Virus record (IMG/VR): IMGVR_UViG_3300017605_000687
Location: 1-25,831 of that record
Length of the DNA stretch: 25,831 nt
Origin: a virus
Direction: 5' to 3' (one strand)
In this document: piece by piece, positions 1-19,616 of the stretch
Layout of the letters: each line of letters starts with the position of its first letter
Numbering within the stretch: position 1 is the stretch's first letter
Notes under the pieces: model-generated
What the model saw: the letters and a program-made list of their open reading frames with translations, nothing else
Databases searched by the model: none
Told to the model about the DNA's origin: nothing
Made by a program: the position numbers and the translations under genes

Positions 1-211
1 AGTCGCCCGCATAGTCGATCCACAGCGCGAACGGCAGCGCGATCCAAACGGACATACAGATGATGCACGCCAGCCCGCGCCCGATCCACGTCTCACTCTT
101 TGCCAGGCCGCGCAGCTTCACAAACACGGAAAACGGCCCCTCCTCGTCGGTGATCATCCGGCTCAGGCGGTAGACCGCCAGGCTGGCCAGCGCAAAGGTC
201 AGCGGCTGCAT
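1..211 (-). CDS. DUF1360-like small membrane protein (partial, C-terminus beyond left edge)
   Basis: The first 70 codons of a gene that runs off the left edge. The start has YRLSRMITDEEGPF and later GLACIICMSVWIALPFALW, the layout of the DUF1360 family (a YRL-RLI-T-EGPF motif, then a C-x2-C-x-SVW motif at the start of a membrane segment). Members are short integral membrane proteins of unknown function, common in phages and Gram-positive bacteria. The ATG lies inside the end of the upstream isomerase gene (13-base overlap), so it is the most distal visible gene of the late operon and is probably translated by coupling. Family assignment is from remembered motif similarity only. Confidence 0.6.
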   Translation of the reverse strand, partial: MQPLTFALASLAVYRLSRMITDEEGPFSVFVKLRGLAKSETWIGRGLACIICMSVWIALPFALWIDYAGD

Positions 212-696
212 AGCGCCTCAGTGAGCCAGTGCCCGATCGTCAGGTGGCAGTCCTCGATGATGCCGTAATGGGTATGCGGCACGCGGATAGTCACATTCGC
301 GTCGCTCTCCTTGCAAAGCGTACTCGTGACCAGCGCAGATCGGATGCGCTGCGCCCGTGCTTCCCGCAGCGCACCCTCGATATTCGGGCTGGCGCCGCTG
401 CACGAGAGACAGATCAGCGCATCATCGGTCCGCACGAGCCGGCTCAACTCCGCGCCCAAGCCAAGCGCATAATCGCGATCATTCGCCCACGCCGTCAGTA
501 CCGCCGGATTGCTGCCCAGCGCCTGTACGCGCCGCCCTGCCGCTTTGGACAGGTCGCAGGCCCAGTGCTGCGCGGTACTCGCGCTGCCGCCATTCCCAGC
601 AAGCCAGAGCGTGCCCTGGCAGGCCTGCACGAAGGCGAGCAGCGGTGCAATATCGAGGCGTGAGAGCGCCACTTTCAGCTCGTCGATGTAGTTCAT
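199..696 (-). CDS. gmhA: SIS-domain sugar-phosphate isomerase, GmhA-like
   Basis: A 165-residue SIS protein resembling D-sedoheptulose-7-phosphate isomerase, which makes D-glycero-D-manno-heptose 7-phosphate, the first step of ADP- and GDP-heptose synthesis. Visible motifs: AGNGGSAS (33-40), SCSGASPNI (98-106, the phosphate-binding SIS loop) and YGIIEDCHLTIGH (144-156, containing the His expected in the active site). It is somewhat shorter than typical GmhA (about 190 residues), mainly at the N-terminus. Where GmhA usually has Glu in the QHxAAEL helix this protein has Asp (QHWACDL), a conservative change at a position I believe is catalytic. Start codon overlaps the stop of the 55-residue gene (ATGA). 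Position next to an HddA-type kinase supports heptose rather than a DiaA-type role. Confidence 0.82.
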   Translation of the reverse strand: MNYIDELKVALSRLDIAPLLAFVQACQGTLWLAGNGGSASTAQHWACDLSKAAGRRVQALGSNPAVLTAWANDRDYALGLGAELSRLVRTDDALICLSCSGASPNIEGALREARAQRIRSALVTSTLCKESDANVTIRVPHTHYGIIEDCHLTIGHWLTEALCSR

Positions 697-860
697 GGCG
701 TGATGCGCTCCCAGATCGTGATCTTCTTACCCGCCCGATACACCCATGCGCCGATCCGCGCACCGTGGATCGCGTTCGCAAAACAGCGCGGCTGCCCAAA
801 GGCGTCCTGTGCGATCGTGCGCCCATAGCTCCGAATGCCCACCGCATACTCAGGCAGCAT
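693..860 (-). CDS. 55-residue hypothetical protein between kinase and isomerase
   Basis: A short open frame beginning at ATG 860-858 and ending in TGA at 695-693. Its start overlaps the end of the heptose kinase gene by 11 bases and its stop overlaps the isomerase start as ATGA, so it fills the gap between the two enzymes exactly. The product begins MLPEYAVGIR and contains several aromatic and basic residues; no motif or signal is recognised. The perfect fit on both sides, not similarity, is the reason for calling it a gene. Confidence 0.6.
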   Translation of the reverse strand: MLPEYAVGIRSYGRTIAQDAFGQPRCFANAIHGARIGAWVYRAGKKITIWERITP

Positions 861-1776
861 AGACGACACGGCAGCCCTCCACGCCTAACCGTATCGGCAC
901 ATGCCGCAGGCCCAGCGCCTGAGTGATCGCCTGGTGGCGCTCAGGTGGCGCGAGAAAGAGCAGGAATCCGCCGCCGCCGGCGCCGCAGAGCTTGCCGCCC
1001 CATGCGCCCTCGTCACGCGCAGTGCGATACCAATCATTCACTTGCCCATTGGCAATAAACCGGCGTTTAATCTTCCATGCTTTGTGCATAACTGCCGCAC
1101 ATATATCTAGCCGATCATACGGAAGCCAATATGCAAACTCTTTTGCTAACTCCGCCAGCCGCCGCACATCGTCCCGATCCTGCTGCTGGCTGGCCAGCAC
1201 CGCGCCCGCGTCGCCCTGTCGCGCCTGTCCGGTGTCGAGCAGCAGGCAGTGACTGCTCAGCGCGTCCAGGTCACATACGAGCGGCTTGACATCTACGCCA
1301 GCGCTGGTAAAGGACAGCAGGTTCAGGCCGCCATAGGCGGCGGTGTACTGGTCTTGCTTGCCGATCGGCGCGCCGAGATCGCCCAACTCCACGTCGCACG
1401 CCGTCTCAGCATACGTCGCCGCGACCTTGCCCGGTCGGAGCGCGGCCAGCAGACCCACCGTAAAGCTGCTGCTGCTGCCCAGTCCGCTTGACCCTGGAAT
1501 ATCGGCCATGCTCGTGACCTCGATCGCGGTCTCAATCTCGACCCGCTGAAGACATGCCCGCATGCGATCGTGCCGCAGCTCCGCCACGGTCGCGACATCC
1601 TCGGTCGCGCGATAGTGCGCTAAGACGCGCCCGGTAAATTCCTTTTTCACCGCGACCCAAACAAATTTATCAATGGCGGCCGCCACGCACGCGCCAGGCT
1701 CCTCTTGGTAGAAGCCGGGTCGGTCGCTGCCGCCGCCGACGAAGCTGATTCGGAGGGGTGTTTTGGTTAGTATCAT
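850..1776 (-). CDS. hddA: GHMP kinase, D-glycero-alpha-D-manno-heptose-7-phosphate kinase-like
   Basis: A 308-residue GHMP-family sugar kinase. The N-terminus MILTKTPLRISFVGGGSDRP and the loop DIPGSSGLGSSSSFTVGLL (92-110) match the HddA branch (heptose-7-phosphate 1-kinase of the GDP-D-glycero-alpha-D-manno-heptose pathway). The C-terminal CGAGGGGFLLFL is the usual GHMP motif 3. Start chosen at ATG 1776, because the family begins directly with the MIxTxTPxRISF strand; the frame is open 11 codons further upstream. HddA uses ATP to phosphorylate the anomeric hydroxyl of heptose 7-phosphate, the GmhA product. A fucokinase or other GHMP sugar kinase is the alternative. Follows a 127-base non-coding gap, so it may start a sub-operon. 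Confidence 0.82.
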   Translation of the reverse strand: MILTKTPLRISFVGGGSDRPGFYQEEPGACVAAAIDKFVWVAVKKEFTGRVLAHYRATEDVATVAELRHDRMRACLQRVEIETAIEVTSMADIPGSSGLGSSSSFTVGLLAALRPGKVAATYAETACDVELGDLGAPIGKQDQYTAAYGGLNLLSFTSAGVDVKPLVCDLDALSSHCLLLDTGQARQGDAGAVLASQQQDRDDVRRLAELAKEFAYWLPYDRLDICAAVMHKAWKIKRRFIANGQVNDWYRTARDEGAWGGKLCGAGGGGFLLFLAPPERHQAITQALGLRHVPIRLGVEGCRVVYAA

Positions 1777-1779
1777 ACG

Positions 1780-1790
1780 TGTGCTATACT
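1780..1790 (+). promoter_or_regulatory. TGTGCTATACT extended -10-like motif (plus strand)
   Basis: The 11-mer TGTGCTATACT reads as TGn plus a TATACT -10 hexamer, pointing rightward into the non-coding stretch 1791-1903. The same 11-mer occurs twice in promoter-like positions on the minus strand (20744-20754 and 20611-20621), and a one-base variant precedes the structured region at 19634. There is no good -35. It lies just outside the kinase start and would drive transcription antisense to the sugar cassette. Confidence 0.35.
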
Positions 1791-1903
1791 CTTTGCGAGC
1801 GCGAAACACGAACGGCCTTAGTGATTGTAGGCACTCAATCTAATGGCCTAGTGCGACTAGCCGGGAGTCCCCATGCCTAGCCCCATAATTGCTAGTCCCG
1901 CGC
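1791..1903 (+). other. Non-coding gap with two inverted repeats (possible small RNA)
   Basis: No credible reading frame in either direction. Contains an interrupted hairpin (GGCC-TTAG-ATTG near 1814-1828 pairing with CAAT-CTAA-GGCC near 1837-1848) and a second inverted repeat GACTAGC (1855-1861) / GCTAGTC (1891-1897). Directly preceded on the plus strand by the TGTGCTATACT motif. It could be a small antisense or regulatory RNA, or on the minus strand a structured spacer separating the glycosyltransferase from the heptose genes. Neither is shown. Confidence 0.3.
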
Positions 1904-5112: not shown

Positions 5113-5131
5113 GTCTGATCTCCTTTCAGAC
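5113..5131 (-). promoter_or_regulatory. Hairpin presenting the ribosome binding site of the 66-residue gene
   Basis: On the minus strand GTCTGA (5131-5126) pairs with TCAGAC (5118-5113), leaving AAGGAGA as the loop, directly before the ATG at 5112. The Shine-Dalgarno sequence is thus displayed in, or locked by, a 6-base-pair stem. This could tune translation of the sugar cassette relative to capsid. Confidence 0.45.
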
Positions 5132-5142
5132 CTCCGAGGTTA

Positions 5143-5200
5143 AGCGCGCGGCGGGTAGCGGAGTCTCCACCTTTTCGGGCCGTCGCCCTAGCCGCGCGCT
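5143..5200 (-). terminator. Long-stem inverted repeat after the capsid gene
   Basis: AGCGCGCGGC (5143-5152) and GCCGCGCGCT (5191-5200) form a perfect 10-bp stem with a 38-base arm, starting 8 bases after the capsid stop. There is no U-run, so it is either an mRNA-stabilising or partial-termination structure at the capsid/sugar-cassette border rather than a clear intrinsic terminator. Confidence 0.4.
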
Positions 5201-12659: not shown

Positions 12660-12829
12660 TGCTTCAGCCCTTCAAGAAAGCGCTCTGCGGTCGGCATATG
12701 CCATTTCGCGCCGTCCCACACAAAGCCCAGCGCCAGCAGCCGCAAGGCGCAGCGCCGACCAGTGAAATGCGGCGCATAAAACCAGCGTTTATACAGTGCA
12801 GCGGCGCTCACGCGCTGTGCGATGCTCAT
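12656..12829 (-). CDS. 57-residue hypothetical protein
   Basis: MSIAQRVSAAALYKRWFYAPHFTGRRCALRLLALGFVWDGAKWHMPTAERFLEGLKQ. ATGA overlaps at both ends (with the GIY-YIG gene before and portal after), and AGGAAAAGG lies upstream of ATG 12829. Basic and aromatic, no recognised family. It lies downstream of the inserted endonuclease and keeps translational continuity with portal, so it may have come with the endonuclease or be an old phage gene. Confidence 0.6.
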   Translation of the reverse strand: MSIAQRVSAAALYKRWFYAPHFTGRRCALRLLALGFVWDGAKWHMPTAERFLEGLKQ

Positions 12830-13554
12830 TGCCTTTTCCTGCTTTCGCGCCAGTAGGCGGCACACGAACGCGAACAGCATTGGGTAGGCATATATTTATT
12901 GCACGAAAACATCTCGCCACAAACGACACATTGACGCGCTTCCTCATCCGCGCCCTGTGCCCGCCGTGCCGCCGCTCGACAACGGTTGGAACAAAACCGC
13001 GTTTGCGACATCGTTCTGGTGGAGTATTCTGTGCCGCAATATTGGCATTGATATGTCTTAGCTTGCCAGATAGCCCATGTGCGACGTGCCTGGCCACTGT
13101 GCCAATTGCGACCATCATCCGATCCATGCCACTCGGAAGCTTGCGACGTAAGACGCCGCATATCTTCGTCAGTCATTTGCTGGCGCGCGCGATCGCTCAG
13201 TTTTTGCTTGGTCTCATCGGTGTGTGAGCGCCCTAGCCACGGCGCCTGTGCAACCTTGCCCGTATTGAATCCCTTCTTTTGGTCGTATGCTTGATAAAAG
13301 TCAAGCCAGTATTGCTCGCGCTCATGGAGATGCTCAACGAACATGACCATTTCGAGTATTTCAAACTCGAAACTCTGTTCACCGTATTTATTCCAAGCAA
13401 ACTGTAAATGGCTGTTGTGGTGTCTGTTGGCACGAAGATCGCCTTTGTGCCAATACCACCGCTTCCGAACATCGGTCGTTGAACCGATATAGACCTTATT
13501 ATTCGCAATGCAGGTGATCTTGTAGATGCCAGCAGAAGATGGTACAGTGGACAT
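12826..13554 (-). CDS. GIY-YIG homing endonuclease with NUMOD3 and zinc ribbons
   Basis: 242 residues from ATG 13554 (AGGA 6 bases upstream). GIY-YIG nuclease at residues 8-90: SAGIYKITC, KVYIGSTTDVRKRW (catalytic Arg), and a later EILEMV/EREQYWLD region. A NUMOD3-type DNA-binding motif follows (GRSHTDETKQKLSDRA), then two Cys4-type zinc ribbons (CQYCGTEY..CSNRC and CVVCGEMF..CSRSC). Free-standing genes of this type cut a homologous site in related phages and spread by repair. It lies between terminase and portal with its own promoter and is more AT-rich than neighbours, as expected for a recent insertion. Confidence 0.88.
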   Translation of the reverse strand: MSTVPSSAGIYKITCIANNKVYIGSTTDVRKRWYWHKGDLRANRHHNSHLQFAWNKYGEQSFEFEILEMVMFVEHLHEREQYWLDFYQAYDQKKGFNTGKVAQAPWLGRSHTDETKQKLSDRARQQMTDEDMRRLTSQASEWHGSDDGRNWHSGQARRTWAIWQAKTYQCQYCGTEYSTRTMSQTRFCSNRCRAAARRAQGADEEARQCVVCGEMFSCNKYMPTQCCSRSCAAYWRESRKRQ

Positions 13555-13585: not shown

Positions 13586-13614
13586 GCTACCGGCGAGTGA
13601 GATCGCGCGGTAGC
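13586..13614 (-). promoter_or_regulatory. Hairpin in the leader of the GIY-YIG gene
   Basis: GCTACCG (13586-13592) and CGGTAGC (13608-13614), 7-bp perfect stem, 15-base loop, between the promoter and the start codon. Leader hairpins often regulate phage homing endonuclease translation; here the ribosome site itself is outside the stem, so the role is open. Confidence 0.4.
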
Positions 13615-13626
13615 ATTTATGTTCAC

Positions 13627-13662
13627 ATTATACCATGTATGTGTCATATTCTGCATTACAAT
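13627..13662 (-). promoter_or_regulatory. Promoter of the GIY-YIG gene: 12-base box plus extended -10
   Basis: Minus-strand reading: ATTGTAATGCAG (13662-13651), 18 bases, then TATAAT (13632-13627) preceded by TGG. The box starts 3 bases after the terminase stop. The same box, spacing and TATAAT precede the HNH endonuclease gene at 19589-19554. No normal -35, so it relies on the extended -10 or an activator bound at the box. Confidence 0.7.
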
Positions 13663-13665
13663 CAG

Positions 13666-14955
13666 TTAAACATCGAATCGCAAAGCCCAACAAACATATC
13701 TCGCCTCGTCTGGTCCGTGATCGAATTGCTTGATCGGCTTGCCGCTGACGCTATCGCGCCGGTAGCTGGCCATCTCGGCGCGAAAGTGCGTGCAGCGCGG
13801 ATGGACGTGCAGGCGGCGGTGGCCGTTGCGATCGTTCGCCAGCGCGCTGCGCAGCTCTTTGATACTTTCCTCGACATCGCTCGGGCTGTTGCGGGTGTAG
13901 ACGCCGGCGGCATGCAGCCGGCCCTTCAGCTCGGCTGCGCTCTTATCGACCACCGCGAAATCAGGGATCGGGTAGGGCAGCGCTTGCACCAGCTTGATAT
14001 GATCGTCCGACAGCATCCCCACGGCGTAGCTCTCGGCGAAGCGATTGAGCGACCCATCCGGGCGCAGTTGGTACAGGCCGAACACGCGCGGGTGACTGTC
14101 GCCGGTGTACTGCCCGCTGCGCGGATCAAGCTTGCCGGTGTAGCCGTCGTCAACCCCCCACAGAATGATACCACCGCCGTCGATGTACTCCGCGTCCGTG
14201 GTCACATTCCCATCAGTCGGGCCATCCGACCAGACATCATAGACGAGCCCGCTGGCCTGGATCCACTGGCCAAGCACGAGTCGCTGATACTCCACCCCGG
14301 AAAGCGTCGCCAGCCACGCGGTGTAGTCGGCAGGGTTGTGAAAGTTATCCGCGGCTGAGCTGAAGTACACCGTCGCCTCTGCGCCATCGATCAGCCGCCG
14401 CTTAATCCAGTGCAGCGGCGCATCGGGGTTAGTCGTGAAGATCAGCTGCCGCCACGGCGCGGCCTTGCCGCGCATACGCGCCGACATCGCGCTGAGATCC
14501 TCTTCCTCGAACTGGGTGCCCTCTTCGAACCAGCCAATATCGACCGCGCCATCCTGCCCGATCGATTTGAGGTTGTCGCGCGCGTTGTCGTCCAAGAGGC
14601 CGACGAACTGAAGAATCGATCCATTCGCGTACTCAAAGCGAAACTTAGGGCTGTCGACCCAGCGCACGGCGCGTGTGCTCCCGACGACTTTGCGGCGCAT
14701 AAACAGGATCGTGCCGCCGCTCATGCTGGTCTTCGCCTTGCGGGCGATCAGCGCGGTAGAACCGGGATACTTAAGACAGTAGCCGTGGATCTTCTCGCCG
14801 GCTAAGCGCGACTTGCCGCCGCCAGCGGAGCCGGTGAGCAGGAGCAGCGGGCTTTTGTCGCGCCAGGGCGCAATCTGCCAGGGCAGCGGATCGAAGACCG
14901 CGATCGGATTATGATTCGCCTGTCTGCGGCTTGTCCCAGTCGTCGGGGTCAACAT
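13666..14955 (-). CDS. terL: Terminase large subunit
   Basis: 429 residues; the ATP-driven DNA packaging motor and headful or site-specific nuclease. ATPase: Walker A GSAGGGKS (42-49), Walker B-like VDIGWFEE (138-145), coupling motif TTNP (174-177). RNase H-like nuclease: acidic positions in WGVDDGYTG (D269/D270), VVDKSAAELKG (D337) and HGPDEARYVCWAL (D416). It fits the Terminase_6/PBSX-type families and has normal length. Start ATG 14955 overlaps the TerS gene by 47 bases; no better start is visible. Works with the portal. Confidence 0.93.
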   Translation of the reverse strand: MLTPTTGTSRRQANHNPIAVFDPLPWQIAPWRDKSPLLLLTGSAGGGKSRLAGEKIHGYCLKYPGSTALIARKAKTSMSGGTILFMRRKVVGSTRAVRWVDSPKFRFEYANGSILQFVGLLDDNARDNLKSIGQDGAVDIGWFEEGTQFEEEDLSAMSARMRGKAAPWRQLIFTTNPDAPLHWIKRRLIDGAEATVYFSSAADNFHNPADYTAWLATLSGVEYQRLVLGQWIQASGLVYDVWSDGPTDGNVTTDAEYIDGGGIILWGVDDGYTGKLDPRSGQYTGDSHPRVFGLYQLRPDGSLNRFAESYAVGMLSDDHIKLVQALPYPIPDFAVVDKSAAELKGRLHAAGVYTRNSPSDVEESIKELRSALANDRNGHRRLHVHPRCTHFRAEMASYRRDSVSGKPIKQFDHGPDEARYVCWALRFDV

Positions 14956-15604
14956 GCGTATAGCCTTTGATGTCCACGCTGCCGGAGTGCTCGACCTGGT
15001 CGGTAAAGAGCTTGTGATGTTTGCCCAGCAACTGCTGCGCGGCCTGGGCGTCGTACAGCTCGATGGTCACCTTGCCTTTGTCATCCAGTCCGTACTTCTT
15101 GATCAGGCCGAGCTGGCCGCGCTTCCCAGCCTCCAGCAGATCCAGCCGCGCGACAGAGCGCGTAATCGTCGCGGTGTGCAGAATGCGATCGGTTGGCTGC
15201 ACGTTCTCCTGGCTGGCCAGGCGCAGCATGGCGCCTGCGATATCGGCCGCGCCCTCGTCTGTCTCGGGCACACTGAGCAGCGACCAGGTAAGCGTCACCT
15301 CTTCATCGTCGATGCGCAGAAAGTCAGCCATCGATCCCCGCGCCTGCGCGCTCAGTCGTGCGAGCACCTCATCAGCGGGCATCGCGTGGAGTGCTAGGCC
15401 CGCGTTGACCGCGGCTCTAACCTTAAGTTTTCTTAAGATCTGGCTCGCCTGCACGTCGGCGGTTTTCTCGCTGTAGCCGGCGCGGATCGCCGCGTTGCGC
15501 TGATGCAAGTCGCGCAGATATTCAATCACGAGCTTGCGCTCTTTGCCCTTCAGCTCAGCCAACGCCGCGTCGAATGCCTGCTGCAATGTCTCCTGATCAG
15601 CCAC
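14909..15604 (-). CDS. terS: Terminase small subunit
   Basis: 231 residues from a GTG start. The N-terminus has KGKERKLVIEYLRDLHQRNAAIRAGYSEKTADVQASQILRKLKVRAAVN, the helix-turn-helix core of the Terminase_2 family (K-x-R-FV-EYL-D-N-AA-RAGYS-KTA-A-LL). The middle is helical for ring formation and the acidic tail probably contacts TerL. Recognises the packaging start on phage DNA. The GTG follows the stop of the small membrane protein by 6 bases. Confidence 0.85.
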   Translation of the reverse strand: MADQETLQQAFDAALAELKGKERKLVIEYLRDLHQRNAAIRAGYSEKTADVQASQILRKLKVRAAVNAGLALHAMPADEVLARLSAQARGSMADFLRIDDEEVTLTWSLLSVPETDEGAADIAGAMLRLASQENVQPTDRILHTATITRSVARLDLLEAGKRGQLGLIKKYGLDDKGKVTIELYDAQAAQQLLGKHHKLFTDQVEHSGSVDIKGYTHVDPDDWDKPQTGES

Positions 15605-15610
15605 GATCTG

Positions 15611-15748
15611 CTACGCCTGCGGCTTGCGCTGCCCAAGCACCCACAGGATCGCTTCGTACACCGCGCGCGCGATCACCCAGCCGATCCCCGCGAAGAATCC
15701 GAACAAGATCAGGTTGACCCAAAGATAGGCCGTAAAGCCGATGTCCAT
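15611..15748 (-). CDS. 45-residue membrane protein (holin-like candidate)
   Basis: MDIGFTAYLWVNLILFGFFAGIGWVIARAVYEAILWVLGQRKPQA: one or two hydrophobic segments and a short basic C-terminus. ATG 15748 is preceded by GGAGGGG at a spacing of 8 bases. It lies between the small membrane gene at 15752 and TerS. Size, topology and closeness to the amidase suggest a holin or antiholin; other small phage membrane proteins look similar. Confidence 0.6.
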   Translation of the reverse strand: MDIGFTAYLWVNLILFGFFAGIGWVIARAVYEAILWVLGQRKPQA

Positions 15749-15751
15749 AAT

Positions 15752-15865
15752 CTATCCCCCTCCGAAGAACAGCCAATACACCGCCGCGCCGACGATGCAC
15801 GGCGCGAGGATCCAAAGCACCGCGACGATAATGATATGAATGCGACGGGCGGTAAACTCGCTCAT
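15752..15865 (-). CDS. 37-residue single-span membrane protein (lysis candidate)
   Basis: MSEFTARRIHIIIVAVLWILAPCIVGAAVYWLFFGGG: a charged start and a single membrane segment of about 25 residues. Its last codons contain the ribosome site (GGAGGGG) of the next small gene, so the two are coupled. Its own ribosome site is weak. Proposed as the partner of the 45-residue membrane protein in host lysis; unproven. Confidence 0.5.
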   Translation of the reverse strand: MSEFTARRIHIIIVAVLWILAPCIVGAAVYWLFFGGG

Positions 15866-15923
15866 AATGGCGGCGTGCCCCTCCGGGCTGCAGTAGAGTT
15901 CAATCCTAAACTATCCTTCCGGC

Positions 15924-16700
15924 TTACAGCGTCCCCCCGGCGTACAGGTACGGCGGCGCCTCCGGCGGCAGCGCGTAGGCGGCCTGGTCGGCGTCCAGAT
16001 AGGGCTGGCTACATGCGTGATACCAGCACGCCGCTGACACTTGGCTGGGCAGCTTGGCATGCAATGCGGCGTAACGCGTGGCCTTGGTCTCCGCCGACGT
16101 GGCCGGGTCGTTAATGCCGCACTCAGTCAGCATCCATGTCTTTGCAGGAAAAAACAGCGCCAGCTGGTCAAGCGCGCGCTGAATCTGGCCGGTGTCGCCG
16201 GCGATGAAATCGTGATAGGCGTAGGCGTGAAACCCGATCGCGTCCGCGAGCTCGAAGCCGTCCTGGCAGATCGCCCACCACTCGCTCTGGCGATTCTCAA
16301 GCAGACCAGGCGAGACAATGCGGGCCTGCGGGAAGGACTCGCGTACCACGCTCAGGCTCTCGATAAACCAGTAGCGGAAATTCCATGCCGCGTCATCGCT
16401 CGCATCGTCGGCGTTCGGCTCGTTGCCCAGCTCGACCGTGATGGTCGATCGCGCCTCGCACCAGGGGCGCAGCTCGGCGAGTACGGCCGATGGATCGAGC
16501 GCCGGCGGGCCTTGACAGCCGTCGCCGCTGATGGTGCGGACGAGCAGCTCGGGCATGGCCGTACACACGTCCATGCGGCTGGCGTCGTCCCAGGGCGCGC
16601 CCCAGCCGGTCACCACCTTGAGCAGCGGCAGACGCGCGCTGCGAATGGTCGAGAGCAGGCCGCCGACCGTGGCGCAATCTGTCAGCACGATGCCTTGCAT
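15924..16700 (-). CDS. Glycoside-hydrolase-like TIM-barrel protein (clan A type)
   Basis: 258 residues from ATG 16700, overlapping the amidase stop as TAATG. ITVELGNEPN (87-96) carries a candidate acid/base Glu94 after Asn, and WMLTECGIND (189-198) a candidate nucleophile Glu193, the two-glutamate arrangement of clan GH-A barrels (GH5/GH39 relatives). AIGFHAYAYHD (154-164) fits a substrate-lining strand. No signal peptide. Directly behind the amidase, so probably a second wall- or capsule-cleaving enzyme used in lysis or entry; substrate unknown. Confidence 0.7.
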   Translation of the reverse strand: MQGIVLTDCATVGGLLSTIRSARLPLLKVVTGWGAPWDDASRMDVCTAMPELLVRTISGDGCQGPPALDPSAVLAELRPWCEARSTITVELGNEPNADDASDDAAWNFRYWFIESLSVVRESFPQARIVSPGLLENRQSEWWAICQDGFELADAIGFHAYAYHDFIAGDTGQIQRALDQLALFFPAKTWMLTECGINDPATSAETKATRYAALHAKLPSQVSAACWYHACSQPYLDADQAAYALPPEAPPYLYAGGTL

Positions 16701-17575
16701 TACACCGGCCTCGCATAACTGCTCGGCACAAAGCCCAGTCCTGGCGGTTTGTTCACGTTTGGCGGCGAGCACCACAGCCAATCCCCCTGCGTGTCGCCGA
16801 CATTGATCGTGTCACCGGGAGCCAGCCATGTCTGTCCATTATCCGGCCCGCTGGCCAGCGGCGCACCCGGCTGACGATCGGTCAAGACCGCGCAGGGCGA
16901 TGTTACCACGTAGCGCATATACACCGTCTGATAGGGCTTTGCGAGGATCGGGATCGCGTACGTGGGCGTGAGGACCGCGCCGGGGCACTCGGGCTTATTG
17001 TAGTCGTTGTGAAAGGAGATCTGATGATCGTGCAGATCGGGTCGGTTATCGGGCGCGCTGGTGTAGACGATATCAAAGGTTTTGAGGCGGTCGCGTAGCG
17101 TCTGCACCGCAATCTGCAACAGCTTCTGCATCGCCTCCGGCCAGCCGTGACTCTGGAAATAGCCCACGGTCTCGATCCCGATCGAGTAGTGCAGCTGCCC
17201 GCTCGCGTCGTGATAGCTATTGCCGGACGCAGCGTGCGTCCCGACATCGTACATCGGGGTGAACAGCCAGATCCAGCGCTCGTCGATAAACAGGTGCGGC
17301 CCGGTTGTCCAATGCTTCGTGTCGCGGTAGTAGACCATGATGCTATCTAACTGCGGCTTCCGTTTGGCTTTGATCTGGTCAGCGCTCAGCCCGGCCTCGT
17401 TGCGATCCCACCATGATGCCTGGTTGGTGCTGATCGGCGCCCATGACGCATCGGGGCTATAGGTGTTATGGATGACCACAAACGACGGCGGCACGCTGCC
17501 GAAGTCATAGCCGGCAACGTAGTCGATAAACTCCTGGCCGGTCTTGGCCTGGCCGATGTAGGCGAATGCGGACAT
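16700..17575 (-). CDS. N-acetylmuramoyl-L-alanine amidase with SH3-like C-terminus (endolysin)
   Basis: 291 residues. Amidase_2/PGRP-type zinc amidase: PSFVVIHNTYS with zinc ligand His36, SIGIETVG (131-138), and FHNDYNKPECPG with His189 and Cys197 eight residues apart as in T7 lysozyme. An SH3-like domain (about 222-291: SPCAVLTDRQPGAPL...TWLAPGDTINVGDTQGDWLWCSPP...LGFVPSSY) probably binds the cell wall. Start ATG 17575 is chosen because AAGGGG precedes it and the longer frame is a shadow of the neighbour. Cuts peptidoglycan for release; needs a holin, as there is no signal peptide. Confidence 0.88.
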   Translation of the reverse strand: MSAFAYIGQAKTGQEFIDYVAGYDFGSVPPSFVVIHNTYSPDASWAPISTNQASWWDRNEAGLSADQIKAKRKPQLDSIMVYYRDTKHWTTGPHLFIDERWIWLFTPMYDVGTHAASGNSYHDASGQLHYSIGIETVGYFQSHGWPEAMQKLLQIAVQTLRDRLKTFDIVYTSAPDNRPDLHDHQISFHNDYNKPECPGAVLTPTYAIPILAKPYQTVYMRYVVTSPCAVLTDRQPGAPLASGPDNGQTWLAPGDTINVGDTQGDWLWCSPPNVNKPPGLGFVPSSYARPV

Positions 17576-17579
17576 CCCC

Positions 17580-17888
17580 TTATTCCCCCACGGCGCGCTC
17601 GACGAGCGGCGCCACCCGTACATTCCACGCATACACGCGCACGGTCGAATAGCCAAAGCCCAGGCGCTTGGCAATCGCGTTATAGCTCATCCCCTGCTCG
17701 CGCAGCACGCGTATCGCGCGCGCATCCTCCGCTGTGACTTTGCAGTAGCGCTTCCCCACGAACGTGGGTGGTCGGGCCGGCTCAGGTGGCGCTTCGTCCG
17801 TGGCCGGGTCAAACGGCGCAACCTCGACGCCAAGCAGCCGCGCCTCCAGGCGCAAACAGCGGTCGAGCAGATACTGGCGCTCGGTCAT
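17580..17888 (-). CDS. Small helix-turn-helix DNA-binding protein
   Basis: 102 residues from ATG 17888 (ATGA overlap with the upstream gene). C-terminal half: KVTAEDARAIRVLREQGMSYNAIAKRLGFGYSTVRVYAWNV, a clear helix-turn-helix of the resolvase/sigma-region-4 type (two helices around GMSYNAIAKRLGFGYSTV). N-terminal MTERQYLLDRCLRLEARLLGVE is helical. It could regulate late transcription or bind phage DNA ends. Third gene of the late operon. Confidence 0.7.
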   Translation of the reverse strand: MTERQYLLDRCLRLEARLLGVEVAPFDPATDEAPPEPARPPTFVGKRYCKVTAEDARAIRVLREQGMSYNAIAKRLGFGYSTVRVYAWNVRVAPLVERAVGE

Positions 17889-18268
17889 AGCCATCTCCCG
17901 AGCAGCTGCGCCAGCAGCAGGATGGTCATCGCGCCCAGCCAGAGGTTCAAATATAGCTGCCGCCGGCTGCGCTCGCCGTGGTCGGCGGCTGTCCACTCTT
18001 CGATGCGCGTGACCCGCTGCACCAGGTTGGTCATCACGTTGAGATTGAGATCGGCCTGGTCGTAGCGCCTGAGCAGCCTCCGCGTCGAGTCATCGATCGC
18101 GCCGTCGGCGACCGCGCCGACGATCCCGACCTCACGCCGCAGATCCTCGCGCTCGTTCAGCAGCTCGACGGGGGCGTGCATGTCGCCGGCGCTGGCAATC
18201 TGGATCTCGATATGTTCCAGCCGCCGAATCTTCGCCTGGCGGATTTTGGCTAAGGCCTCGTCACGCAT
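17885..18268 (-). CDS. Helical protein with C-terminal membrane anchor
   Basis: 127 residues from ATG 18268 (TGATG with the preceding stop). Starts with KIRRLEHIEIQIASAGDMHAPVELLNEREDLRREV, a helical pair, has a long amphipathic middle, and ends RRQLYLNLWLGAMTILLLAQLLGRWL, one C-terminal membrane segment. A tail-anchored topology within a lysis-proximal cluster suggests a holin-associated or spanin-like protein, but no family is certain. Confidence 0.6.
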   Translation of the reverse strand: MRDEALAKIRQAKIRRLEHIEIQIASAGDMHAPVELLNEREDLRREVGIVGAVADGAIDDSTRRLLRRYDQADLNLNVMTNLVQRVTRIEEWTAADHGERSRRQLYLNLWLGAMTILLLAQLLGRWL

Positions 18269-18639
18269 CACGCGCCCGCCTCGCGCGCCGCGTCAAGCAG
18301 CGCCTCGACCTCCGGCCAGCGCTCGCGCATGAGCGCTACGGTCTGCTTGATGTTTGCGATATCGGCGCTCACGTTGGCCAGCAGCGGCGCTGAAACGTCG
18401 AAGGATTCTTGCAGCGTGCGTAGATCGGCCGCCAGTTGGGCATCGATCGCATCCAATCTCGCCTGCATGCTGTCCTCAATCTGGACGATCGCGTGCTGCA
18501 AACGGGTGGTCTTGTCTTCGCTGGCCTTGAGGATGCGCATGATCAGCAGATCGAGCGCGCTATCGGGCGCGCCAAGCGCGCGCAGCTCATCGATCGAGCT
18601 GCGAATCTCAAGCGGCAGGAATTGGGCGTTCTGCGACAT
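18268..18639 (-). CDS. Coiled-coil protein, first gene of the late operon
   Basis: 123 residues, almost wholly helical with heptad-like spacing (LDLLIMRILKASEDKTTRLQHAIVQIEDSMQARLDAIDAQLAADLRTLQES...ANIKQTVALMRERWPEVEALLDAA). No signal or cysteines. Begins about 30 bases after the predicted transcription start at 18670, without a clear Shine-Dalgarno. Function unknown. Confidence 0.65.
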   Translation of the reverse strand: MSQNAQFLPLEIRSSIDELRALGAPDSALDLLIMRILKASEDKTTRLQHAIVQIEDSMQARLDAIDAQLAADLRTLQESFDVSAPLLANVSADIANIKQTVALMRERWPEVEALLDAAREAGA

Positions 18640-18676
18640 ACGGGCGGACTCGGAGCGCCGGGGGTGTGGTGATCAA

Positions 18677-18705
18677 ATGCTAACACGCGATTACGGTCAA
18701 GTCAA
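18677..18705 (-). promoter_or_regulatory. Late operon promoter
   Basis: Minus strand: TTGACT (18705-18700), 17 bases, TAGCAT (18682-18677) with TGT just before it (extended -10). Lies between the HNH gene and the first late gene, facing the late operon; no other strong promoter is seen at the head of the 18-kb gene block. Confidence 0.65.
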
Positions 18706-18723
18706 ACAGTAATCCGACAGCAG

Positions 18724-19482
18724 TTATCGATAGTCTATCGTTTTTGTTCCCTTGCTGCAATTACATGATATACACAGCGGTTGAATATTCGTTATCTCAT
18801 TTGTCCCGCCTTTTGCGAGAGGAACAACATGATCGACAGTAAGCGGCTTCTTTTCCTTACAACATAAACATCGAAATTCATAACGAACGCACAATGACTC
18901 CCATTCCGCCTTTGTGTACGATCCCCCTCCGCCTGCCTTGCGAGCGCGCCGCTGCTGTCTTTGTGCTTGTTTAAGTGCTTGCAATCGATCAGGGGCTAGT
19001 GAGTCAAGCCATTGCTTCTGACGATCGCGGTGCTCTTTCAGATGTGTGGAGCGGTAGCGGCGTGCATACTCCTTCCGTGCTTGGATACGACGATCCGCTT
19101 TTTCCTGAGCCGAAAGACTCGAAAGATCGGTGCGCTTTTGTTTTGGTTTTGTTCGTTTAGCATCACGAAGCGCTAACGCTTGTCTCGCGCGGCGTTCTCG
19201 CTTCTCTTCTTCGGAAAGTCCAGCGCGAGACAAGCGCTTTGGCATGACGCGCTTTGGGGTTGTTCGCTTTGCATCGCGAAGCAGCATTGCCTTGGCATTA
19301 CGCCGATCGCGCTTTTCCTGATCTGACAATTGGGGCCGTGGGGAAGGAGTCTTCGCTGCTGGGGGTTTCGCGTCCCTATACGCCTTTTGTCGCGCCGCGT
19401 GTCGTGCCTTGTTTTCCGGCTTACTCTGGTACTTCCTCGCGCTTGCAGCGCGGCGTGCTTTTTTCTCTGCTATACTCAACAT
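18724..19482 (-). CDS. HNH endonuclease with repetitive basic N-terminus
   Basis: 252 residues. The HNH/McrA-type domain is at the C-terminus: RCLCCKEKKPLTVDHVVPLAKGGTNEITNIQPLCISCNCSKGTK, with two CxxC knuckles and catalytic DH. The rest is Lys/Arg-rich with an imperfect repeated unit (LS-x-x-EKRDRR-x-AKAMLLRDAKRT-x-PK, LSEEEKRERRARQALALRDAKRTKPK, LSAQEKADRRIQARKEY), probably a DNA-binding arm. The second ATG (19482) is chosen since AGGAG is 6 bases before it. AT-rich relative to neighbours; a free-standing homing endonuclease or a packaging-associated HNH; the shared promoter with the GIY-YIG gene favours homing. Confidence 0.85.
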   Translation of the reverse strand: MLSIAEKKARRAASARKYQSKPENKARHAARQKAYRDAKPPAAKTPSPRPQLSDQEKRDRRNAKAMLLRDAKRTTPKRVMPKRLSRAGLSEEEKRERRARQALALRDAKRTKPKQKRTDLSSLSAQEKADRRIQARKEYARRYRSTHLKEHRDRQKQWLDSLAPDRLQALKQAQRQQRRARKAGGGGSYTKAEWESLCVRYEFRCLCCKEKKPLTVDHVVPLAKGGTNEITNIQPLCISCNCSKGTKTIDYR

Positions 19483-19553
19483 GTTCATCTCCTATTCAGA
19501 TGAGCCATACCCCGGCTGTTTCCAGCAGCGCGGGGCTTCGAATATCTGTGCTA

Positions 19554-19589
19554 ATTATAGCATAAACTACCGATTTGCTGCATTACAAT
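19554..19589 (-). promoter_or_regulatory. Promoter of the HNH gene, twin of the GIY-YIG promoter
   Basis: Minus strand: ATTGTAATGCAG (19589-19578), 18 bases, TATAAT (19559-19554) preceded by TGC. Box and spacing are identical to 13662-13627 although the 18 intervening bases differ. Confidence 0.7.
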
Positions 19590-19616
19590 GCGATAAATAA
19601 ACGTGGTTCGCAAGAA

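Follow-up and report, generated by a model that had tools for sequence, protein, structure and literature searches.

A candidate portable promoter-operator-leader cassette ahead of unrelated phage homing endonuclease genes

Homing endonucleases must persist without harm to the phage that carries them, and their regulation outside T4-like phages is little known. A virus fragment of 25,831 bases (IMG/VR record IMGVR_UViG_3300017605_000687; the whole stretch is referred to here as the window) raises the question of why two such genes of different families should share an upstream sequence. On the minus strand of the window, ATTGTAATGCAG-N18-TATAAT occurs in two exact copies (13662-13627 and 19589-19554), one ahead of a GIY-YIG endonuclease gene (A) and the other ahead of an HNH endonuclease gene (B). 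A first-pass annotation of this DNA had read the pair as one unusual promoter, with TGn in front of TATAAT, that serves two unrelated homing endonucleases; both positions proved exact, and the window holds no other copies. In the reading that we favor and consider rather probable, the two sites are copies of a portable promoter-operator-leader cassette for free-standing homing endonuclease genes.

Upstream elements shared by unrelated nuclease genes

The 18 spacer bases of the two window sites are unrelated to each other, and TGG or TGC precedes TATAAT. A given 12-mer is expected about 0.003 times per 25.8 kilobases (kb), both strands counted, so that two exact copies at the identical 18-base spacing are not attributable to chance. 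Near matches with up to three mismatches are at chance level: 13 further ones were found in the window, all with exactly three mismatches, which makes 15 matches in all against 11.5 expected. The genes and upstream elements in the window are the following (lengths in amino acids, aa, or base pairs, bp).

12826..13554, minus strand: GIY-YIG endonuclease gene A, 242 aa, with GIY-YIG and NUMOD3 domains (Pfam)
13627..13635, minus strand: extended -10 element of cassette A, TGGTATAAT; also the proposed 5' arm of a helix, P1
13647..13670, minus strand: 24-bp imperfect palindrome of cassette A, TTTAACTGATTGTAATGCAGAATA, one of the weaker dyads; its center is the box of the first-pass annotation
18724..19482, minus strand: HNH endonuclease gene B, with an HNH domain (Pfam)
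19554..19562, minus strand: extended -10 element of cassette B, TGCTATAAT; proposed 5' arm of P1, with a G-to-C change that is matched in the coding arm
19574..19597, minus strand: 24-bp imperfect palindrome of cassette B, TTTATCGCATTGTAATGCAGCAAA, from the dyad analysis

IMG/VR searches and homology yielded 19 instances of this arrangement in total, 17 of them ahead of nuclease genes; the remaining two precede an open reading frame (ORF) cut by the contig end (O) and a hypothetical ORF of 76 aa (R). The members are labeled A and B (window), C (L028), D (L098), E (L129), F (L133), G (L134), H (L138), I (L139), J (L142), K (L175), L (L177), M (L152), N (L154), O (L153), P (L156), Q (L097), R (L195) and S (L217). 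The IMG/VR scans used exact patterns, with TATAAT required for most members, and the phage records are fragments. The exact scan returned 32 stretches, among which only L028 is GC-rich like the window; this third exact copy has the same box, spacing and TGGTATAAT before another GIY-YIG gene, adjoining terS/terL, in a phage whose terminase differs from that of the window. Relatives of the window terminase contributed two more instances with altered boxes, both at HNH genes (L098 and L129); in L098, the spacing between box and TGG is 8 bp in place of 17. With the relaxed pattern ATTGTAATGCN{8,22}TGGTATAAT, 14 IMG/VR stretches matched, and all eight of the GC-rich ones precede a nuclease ORF, in keeping with a promoter specific to such genes; the six matches in lower-GC contigs show no such arrangement. 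A search blind to the box (TGGTATAAT combined with AYTNTACC at the start codon) added six more, all before nuclease-type ORFs. L097 was found by the RNA model and L217 by protein homology, neither through the -10 or box pattern, and both still have TGGTATAAT or TGGTATACT at the same distance; L195 was found by the RNA model in the whole record.

The genes behind the cassette belong to several Pfam families: GIY-YIG (A, G, H, I, K), LEM-3 GIY-YIG (C, M, Q), HNH (B, D, E, J, L, with S grouped with the HNH genes by homology) and Endonuclease VII (Endonuclease_7; F, P). In N (L154 1789-1876, minus strand), the first ORF after the leader is a stub of five codons closed by TAG; a terminator-like hairpin comes next, and then a T5orf172/MUG113 nuclease ORF. 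The truncated ORF of O has no Pfam match and a Cys-rich start, as in HNH members. E is oriented opposite to the neighboring genes and hence requires its own promoter. At the level of sequence, these comparisons establish the cassette and its association with nucleases, and the motif is conserved in relatives with either type of endonuclease. The cassette is not universal, because other ORFs in the same phages that resemble homing endonuclease genes (G025, G010) have no such leader. Furthermore, L035 and L036, relatives of the window GIY-YIG protein at 40-45%, lack the cassette; HNH B has no close relative in IMG/VR; leader B has no match in the named phage genomes; a variant -10 search restricted to TTGTAATGCAG gave nothing new in GC-rich contigs; and in 398 genomes of L037's phylum the RNA model produced two weak matches, without -10 or nuclease, that we took as chance.

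The first-pass annotation confined the sharing to the box and TATAAT. Both are shared, and the sharing also runs upstream into the 24-bp palindrome and downstream into a structured leader, an overlooked element that, like the extended -10 element, is more constant than the box. The palindrome consensus over 11 members, TTTAnCnnATT-GT-AATGCnGTAAA, is centered at about -38.5 when aligned on the -10 element. Its six outermost pairs were constrained by none of the search patterns; 38 of 60 cells match there, where shuffled letters give 23.2 +/- 3.1. Across 502 kb of phage sequence, a weight-matrix scan detected one further high-scoring palindrome, TTTACCGCATTACAATGCTTTAAA (L204:534-511, minus strand). 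It lies 27 bp ahead of TATAAT in the phage that also carries E, and a T5orf172-like ORF of 143 aa follows it. The extended -10 element TGnTATAAT (with TGG, TGC or TGT) is present in all members but S, which has TGGTATACT. A consensus -35 TTGACA at 16-18 bp is not present in the members; at 17-18 bp, the sequence is TGCAGA- or ATGCAG-like. For extended -10 promoters, a -35 element is optional.

The palindrome is probably bound by a dimeric regulator. The earlier idea of an activator or sigma factor that times endonuclease expression fits in so far as the box is the center of a dyad near -38.5 in the boxed members, a placement suited to a dimeric activator (about -41.5 in class II activator-dependent promoters), with several members lacking the dyad. 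The box is not essential to the family, because members exist with the same -10 element and leader and no recognizable box, and in D the box is displaced. The late helix-turn-helix (HTH) protein at 17580, named in the first-pass annotation as an example of a phage regulator, has no clear homologue in the cassette phages, and no HTH protein common to these phages was found in the phage records searched for a shared regulator.

Leader hairpins P2 and P3

The likely starts are ATG 13554 for gene A and ATG 19482 for gene B, the start codon being aligned across the family, and with these starts the leaders of A and B are 71-72 nucleotides (nt) long. Leaders across the family measure about 60-80 nt. 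The possibility that the leader codes for an extension of the nuclease was considered, as the reading frame stays open from the box onward in A, C and D; it was ruled out by leader lengths of 63-78 nt, which fall in all three frames. Two hairpins, P2 and P3, recur in the leader, and the window has them at the following positions.

13586..13614, minus strand: P2 hairpin of leader A, with a 7-bp outer stem, a bulged C, a 4-bp inner stem and a TCTCAC loop
13557..13580, minus strand: P3 hairpin of leader A, sequestering the Shine-Dalgarno sequence (TAGGA)
19509..19536, minus strand: P2 hairpin of leader B, with outer stem GCCCCG..CGGGGT, inner stem GCTG/CAGC and a CTGGAAA loop
19485..19503, minus strand: P3 hairpin of leader B, with the Shine-Dalgarno sequence AGGAG enclosed by TCATCT..AGATGA

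In its general form, P2 has an outer stem of about 7 bp and an inner stem of 4 bp, with a bulged C between them and a loop of CNNNNAA or TCTCAC. A first whole-leader alignment with MAFFT misaligned P2 in several rows, and a covariance-model alignment of 17 members was used in its place. P2 is paired there in 95.1% of cells, and 10 of 11 pairs show double-sided changes (39 cells, compared with 7.8 in shuffles; 0/500); when the partner is slid by one to three columns, pairing drops to 28-46%. A count of P2 arms read by hand agrees with this result. J has a short hairpin only and no P2.

Nearly every member has its Shine-Dalgarno sequence enclosed in P3, whose two arms change in a compensating way (for example CAATCT/AGATTG, CATCT/AGATG and GCCT/AGGC). 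In 15 leaders, 76 of 89 P3 cells are paired, against 44.3 when arms are swapped among members (0/20000). Both hairpins are thereby established as sequence features, and this covariation supports a predicted sequestration of the ribosome-binding site by P3. No Rfam 15 model matched the window leaders or any of ten cassette loci at E values up to 1.

Insertion boundary and probable exchange between leaders and ORFs

Gene A is absent from L092 and L093, whose terminase DNA is about 92% identical to that of the window, and these records represent empty sites. Comparison with them sets the insertion boundary at A: the terminase stop codon TAA is followed at once by the cassette (CTGATTGTAATGC), which closes with CAATGA, where the TGA of gene A overlaps the ATG of the next gene, as the terminase stop does in the empty site. 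C and D likewise begin directly after a stop codon. Relative to L092 and L093, the last terminase codons in the window (13666-13705, minus strand) are recoded. They have TTTGTTGGGCTTTGCG in common with L097, where a different GIY-YIG gene occupies this position. Such recoding would be the trace expected of a nuclease that cuts the 3' end of the terminase gene.

Leaders and ORFs have probably recombined. Leader identity is 0.598 within and 0.569 between nuclease families, a difference that label shuffles reach in 460 of 10000 cases. The leader of K has its closest match in an HNH leader, while the nuclease of K shares 45% identity with that of I. The divergence of leaders with pairing retained argues for selection on the leader itself. 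The leader of R may possibly be a scar left after loss of a nuclease gene.

Several other features were observed. L099 carries, at 5175-4300 (minus strand), a Cys-rich ORF that by eye resembles a Vsr/EDxHD-type homing endonuclease and has its own extended -10 element and a weak palindrome match. In the window, a near-perfect, terminator-like hairpin (CATAGAAGCCGTTCTC..GAGAACGGCTTCTATG; 19734-19698, minus strand) lies between gene blocks, and a comparable one is found near L093 2620-2655. A match to the int-alpA RNA (Rfam RF02996; 47.4 bits, gathering threshold 35.8) at 5131-5198 (minus strand) is located just after the major capsid gene, not between integrase and alpA. At 199-1809 (minus strand), phosphosugar isomerase (SIS) and sugar kinase-like genes adjoin glycosyltransferase-like genes.

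Proposed helix P1, the proposed switch and its alternatives

A third pairing, P1, would join the promoter to the beginning of the coding region: GGTATAAT in the promoter is complementary to A-N-T-N-T-A-C-C in codons 3-5.

13541..13548, minus strand: ACTGTACC, in gene A, codons 3-5; would pair with GGTATAAT as the 3' arm of P1
19469..19476, minus strand: AGTATAGC, in gene B, codons 3-5; would be the 3' arm of P1, with a change that compensates for that in TGCTATAAT

In all nine genes that were not selected on their starts, the third positions T and A of two codons are fixed, whereas T and A make up 24% and 20% of third positions. Matched changes on both sides occur in B (GCTATAAT/AGTATAGC) and in S, that is, L217 (GGTATACT/AGTATACC); the helix is longer in I (TATTCGTGGTA/TACCACGAATA, 11 bp), K and C; and in J, the member lacking P2, the -10 region pairs with the start codon instead. 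When the letters of the start region were shuffled, P1 helices were weaker (0/300). We regard P1 as a plausible hypothesis.

Taken together, and in downstream order, the cassette consists of a 24-bp palindrome near -38.5, a putative operator that stands in place of the -35 box and to which a dimeric regulator probably binds; the extended -10 element TGnTATAAT, as the putative promoter; a structured leader with the covarying P2 and the P3 that holds the Shine-Dalgarno sequence; and first codons complementary to the -10 region. The nuclease gene would be transcribed from its own promoter, with P3 keeping translation low. Read-through mRNA of the surrounding late operon would include the -10 sequence, which could form P1 with codons 3-5 and thereby shut the start more tightly, and RNA started at the cassette promoter would be without this P1 arm and so remain translatable. 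ORFs of different nuclease families would have been swapped behind the cassette. The promoter activity, the regulator, the control of translation and the part given to P1 are what we infer from the arrangement of these elements.

A number of observations weigh against this reading. Six members (K, L, M, P, Q and S) have no palindrome or a degraded one, two more (D and O) have it displaced or incomplete, and the conservation of TATAAT is partly a product of selection, as it was in the search pattern for most members. The covariance-model alignment was fitted to the P2 structure, and the arms of P2 and P3 in the hand-read count were chosen by eye. P3 is able to form on both own-promoter and read-through RNA and hence cannot, on its own, distinguish the two types of transcript. 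For P1, the energies of own versus swapped pairs differ weakly (p about 0.03 in unselected members, 0.09 in all), the core is otherwise near-invariant, and folding predicts a clear closing of the start on read-through RNA for A, I, J, L, P and Q and none for B, C, E, G and O. Finally, in R (L195 1501-1575, minus strand), the leader hairpins stand with TGTTATAAT before the 76-aa hypothetical ORF, and P1 is lacking.

The strongest competitor, to which we give a little less than an even chance, is that the leader merely throttles translation through P3 and that P1 is a coincidence of a conserved -10 element and an N-terminal codon motif, the latter serving initiation efficiency or descending from one ancestral 5' end. 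The covariation of P1 is limited, two core positions are often mispaired (A.C, T.C) with the outer pairs at the level of swapped arms, and several members show no predicted closing on folding; the matching changes in B and L217, the longer helices, the start-codon version in J and the fixed third positions speak for a genuine helix. It is also conceivable, if somewhat doubtful, that the leader is a sensing RNA in which P2, through its CNNNNAA or TCTCAC loop, recognizes a ligand, or a protein of the host or phage, whose binding toggles P3, so that one trans-acting signal would serve unrelated nucleases. Covariation is kept in P2 although P2 itself does not cover the Shine-Dalgarno sequence, and the loop and bulged C are more alike among members than the stem, but J dispenses with P2, and the Rfam search mentioned above returned nothing for these leaders.

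The remaining explanations concern the shared sequence as a whole. That it is an ordinary host promoter form, open to any phage gene, appears improbable. TGnTATAAT is indeed the standard extended -10 element, and leader R precedes a gene without a nuclease domain; in 23 phage records searched with up to three mismatches, however, the only sites found precede nuclease ORFs, and the sole strong extra palindrome, that of L204, also precedes a T5orf172-like ORF. A frequent host form, which the first-pass annotation had named as the finding that would undo its proposal, did not emerge from the bacterial genomes scanned: the scan, which covered the ATTGTAATGCAG form only, gave eight exact matches, none with a leader, that look like chance. 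Plain descent, in which a single ancestral endonuclease gene spread too recently for the region upstream of it to have diverged, is disfavored and seems very improbable to us. Both window copies do reside in one genome with box and spacing identical, but they precede different nuclease families, and the leaders differ strongly yet keep their pairs and barely cluster by family, leader K being closest to an HNH leader although its nuclease resembles that of I.

The portable cassette that we favor can be compared with several known systems. As in T4 I-TevI, I-TevII, I-TevIII and segB and in Aeh1 mobE, a homing endonuclease gene lies within other transcription units, with a promoter directly upstream and RNA structure over the ribosome-binding site (PMC2988022); for I-TevI, segB and mobE, this structure forms on read-through and not on own-promoter transcripts (PMC2988022, section 12). 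Unlike these genes, which use a T4 late or middle promoter, the cassette combines an extended -10 element with an upstream palindrome, one leader family (P2, P3) serves several nuclease families, and P3 can form on both RNAs. The T4 late promoter TATAAATA is not present in the members, which have TGnTATAAT or, in S, TGGTATACT instead. Of the traits of T4-type dual control, that of a controlled phage homing endonuclease is represented by the Pfam nuclease families and the empty sites for A, with homing itself predicted. A structure barred from own-promoter RNA could only be P1, which needs the -10 sequence and hence read-through, with the effect predicted in some members.

The operator through which I-TevI represses itself mimics the homing site of that one enzyme (PMC2988022, section 10). 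The cassette likewise has a DNA-binding site, here putative, at an endonuclease promoter; unlike the I-TevI operator, the same palindrome precedes unrelated nucleases, which makes a common regulator likelier than self-binding. The arrangement also recalls MotA-dependent middle promoters in having a conserved box in place of -35 and a TATAAT-like -10 element. In T4, the MotA box lies near -30, whereas here a 24-bp dyad of other sequence is centered at -38.5, almost only before nuclease genes. HEARO/OMEGA RNAs are structured RNAs that adjoin HNH genes, as the leader of B does; unlike them, the leader is a short 5' element with a Shine-Dalgarno sequence and without an Rfam match, and it also precedes GIY-YIG and Endonuclease VII genes.

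More tentatively, and at less than even odds in our estimation, the regulatory 5' module may be a mobile unit in its own right, independent of the ORF, behind which unrelated nucleases are swapped, which answers to one trans-acting factor, and whose -10 element doubles as an RNA arm that silences read-through. If this is true, a -10 box serving as both promoter and RNA arm would be a compact logic for separating own-promoter from read-through mRNA. The covariance model and the palindrome offer a sequence handle for finding unannotated homing genes and perhaps the regulator. That several nuclease families in these soil-type phages share one control unit implies that a single regulatory module was captured repeatedly, and it suggests that a portable switch holds potentially harmful nucleases under tight control.

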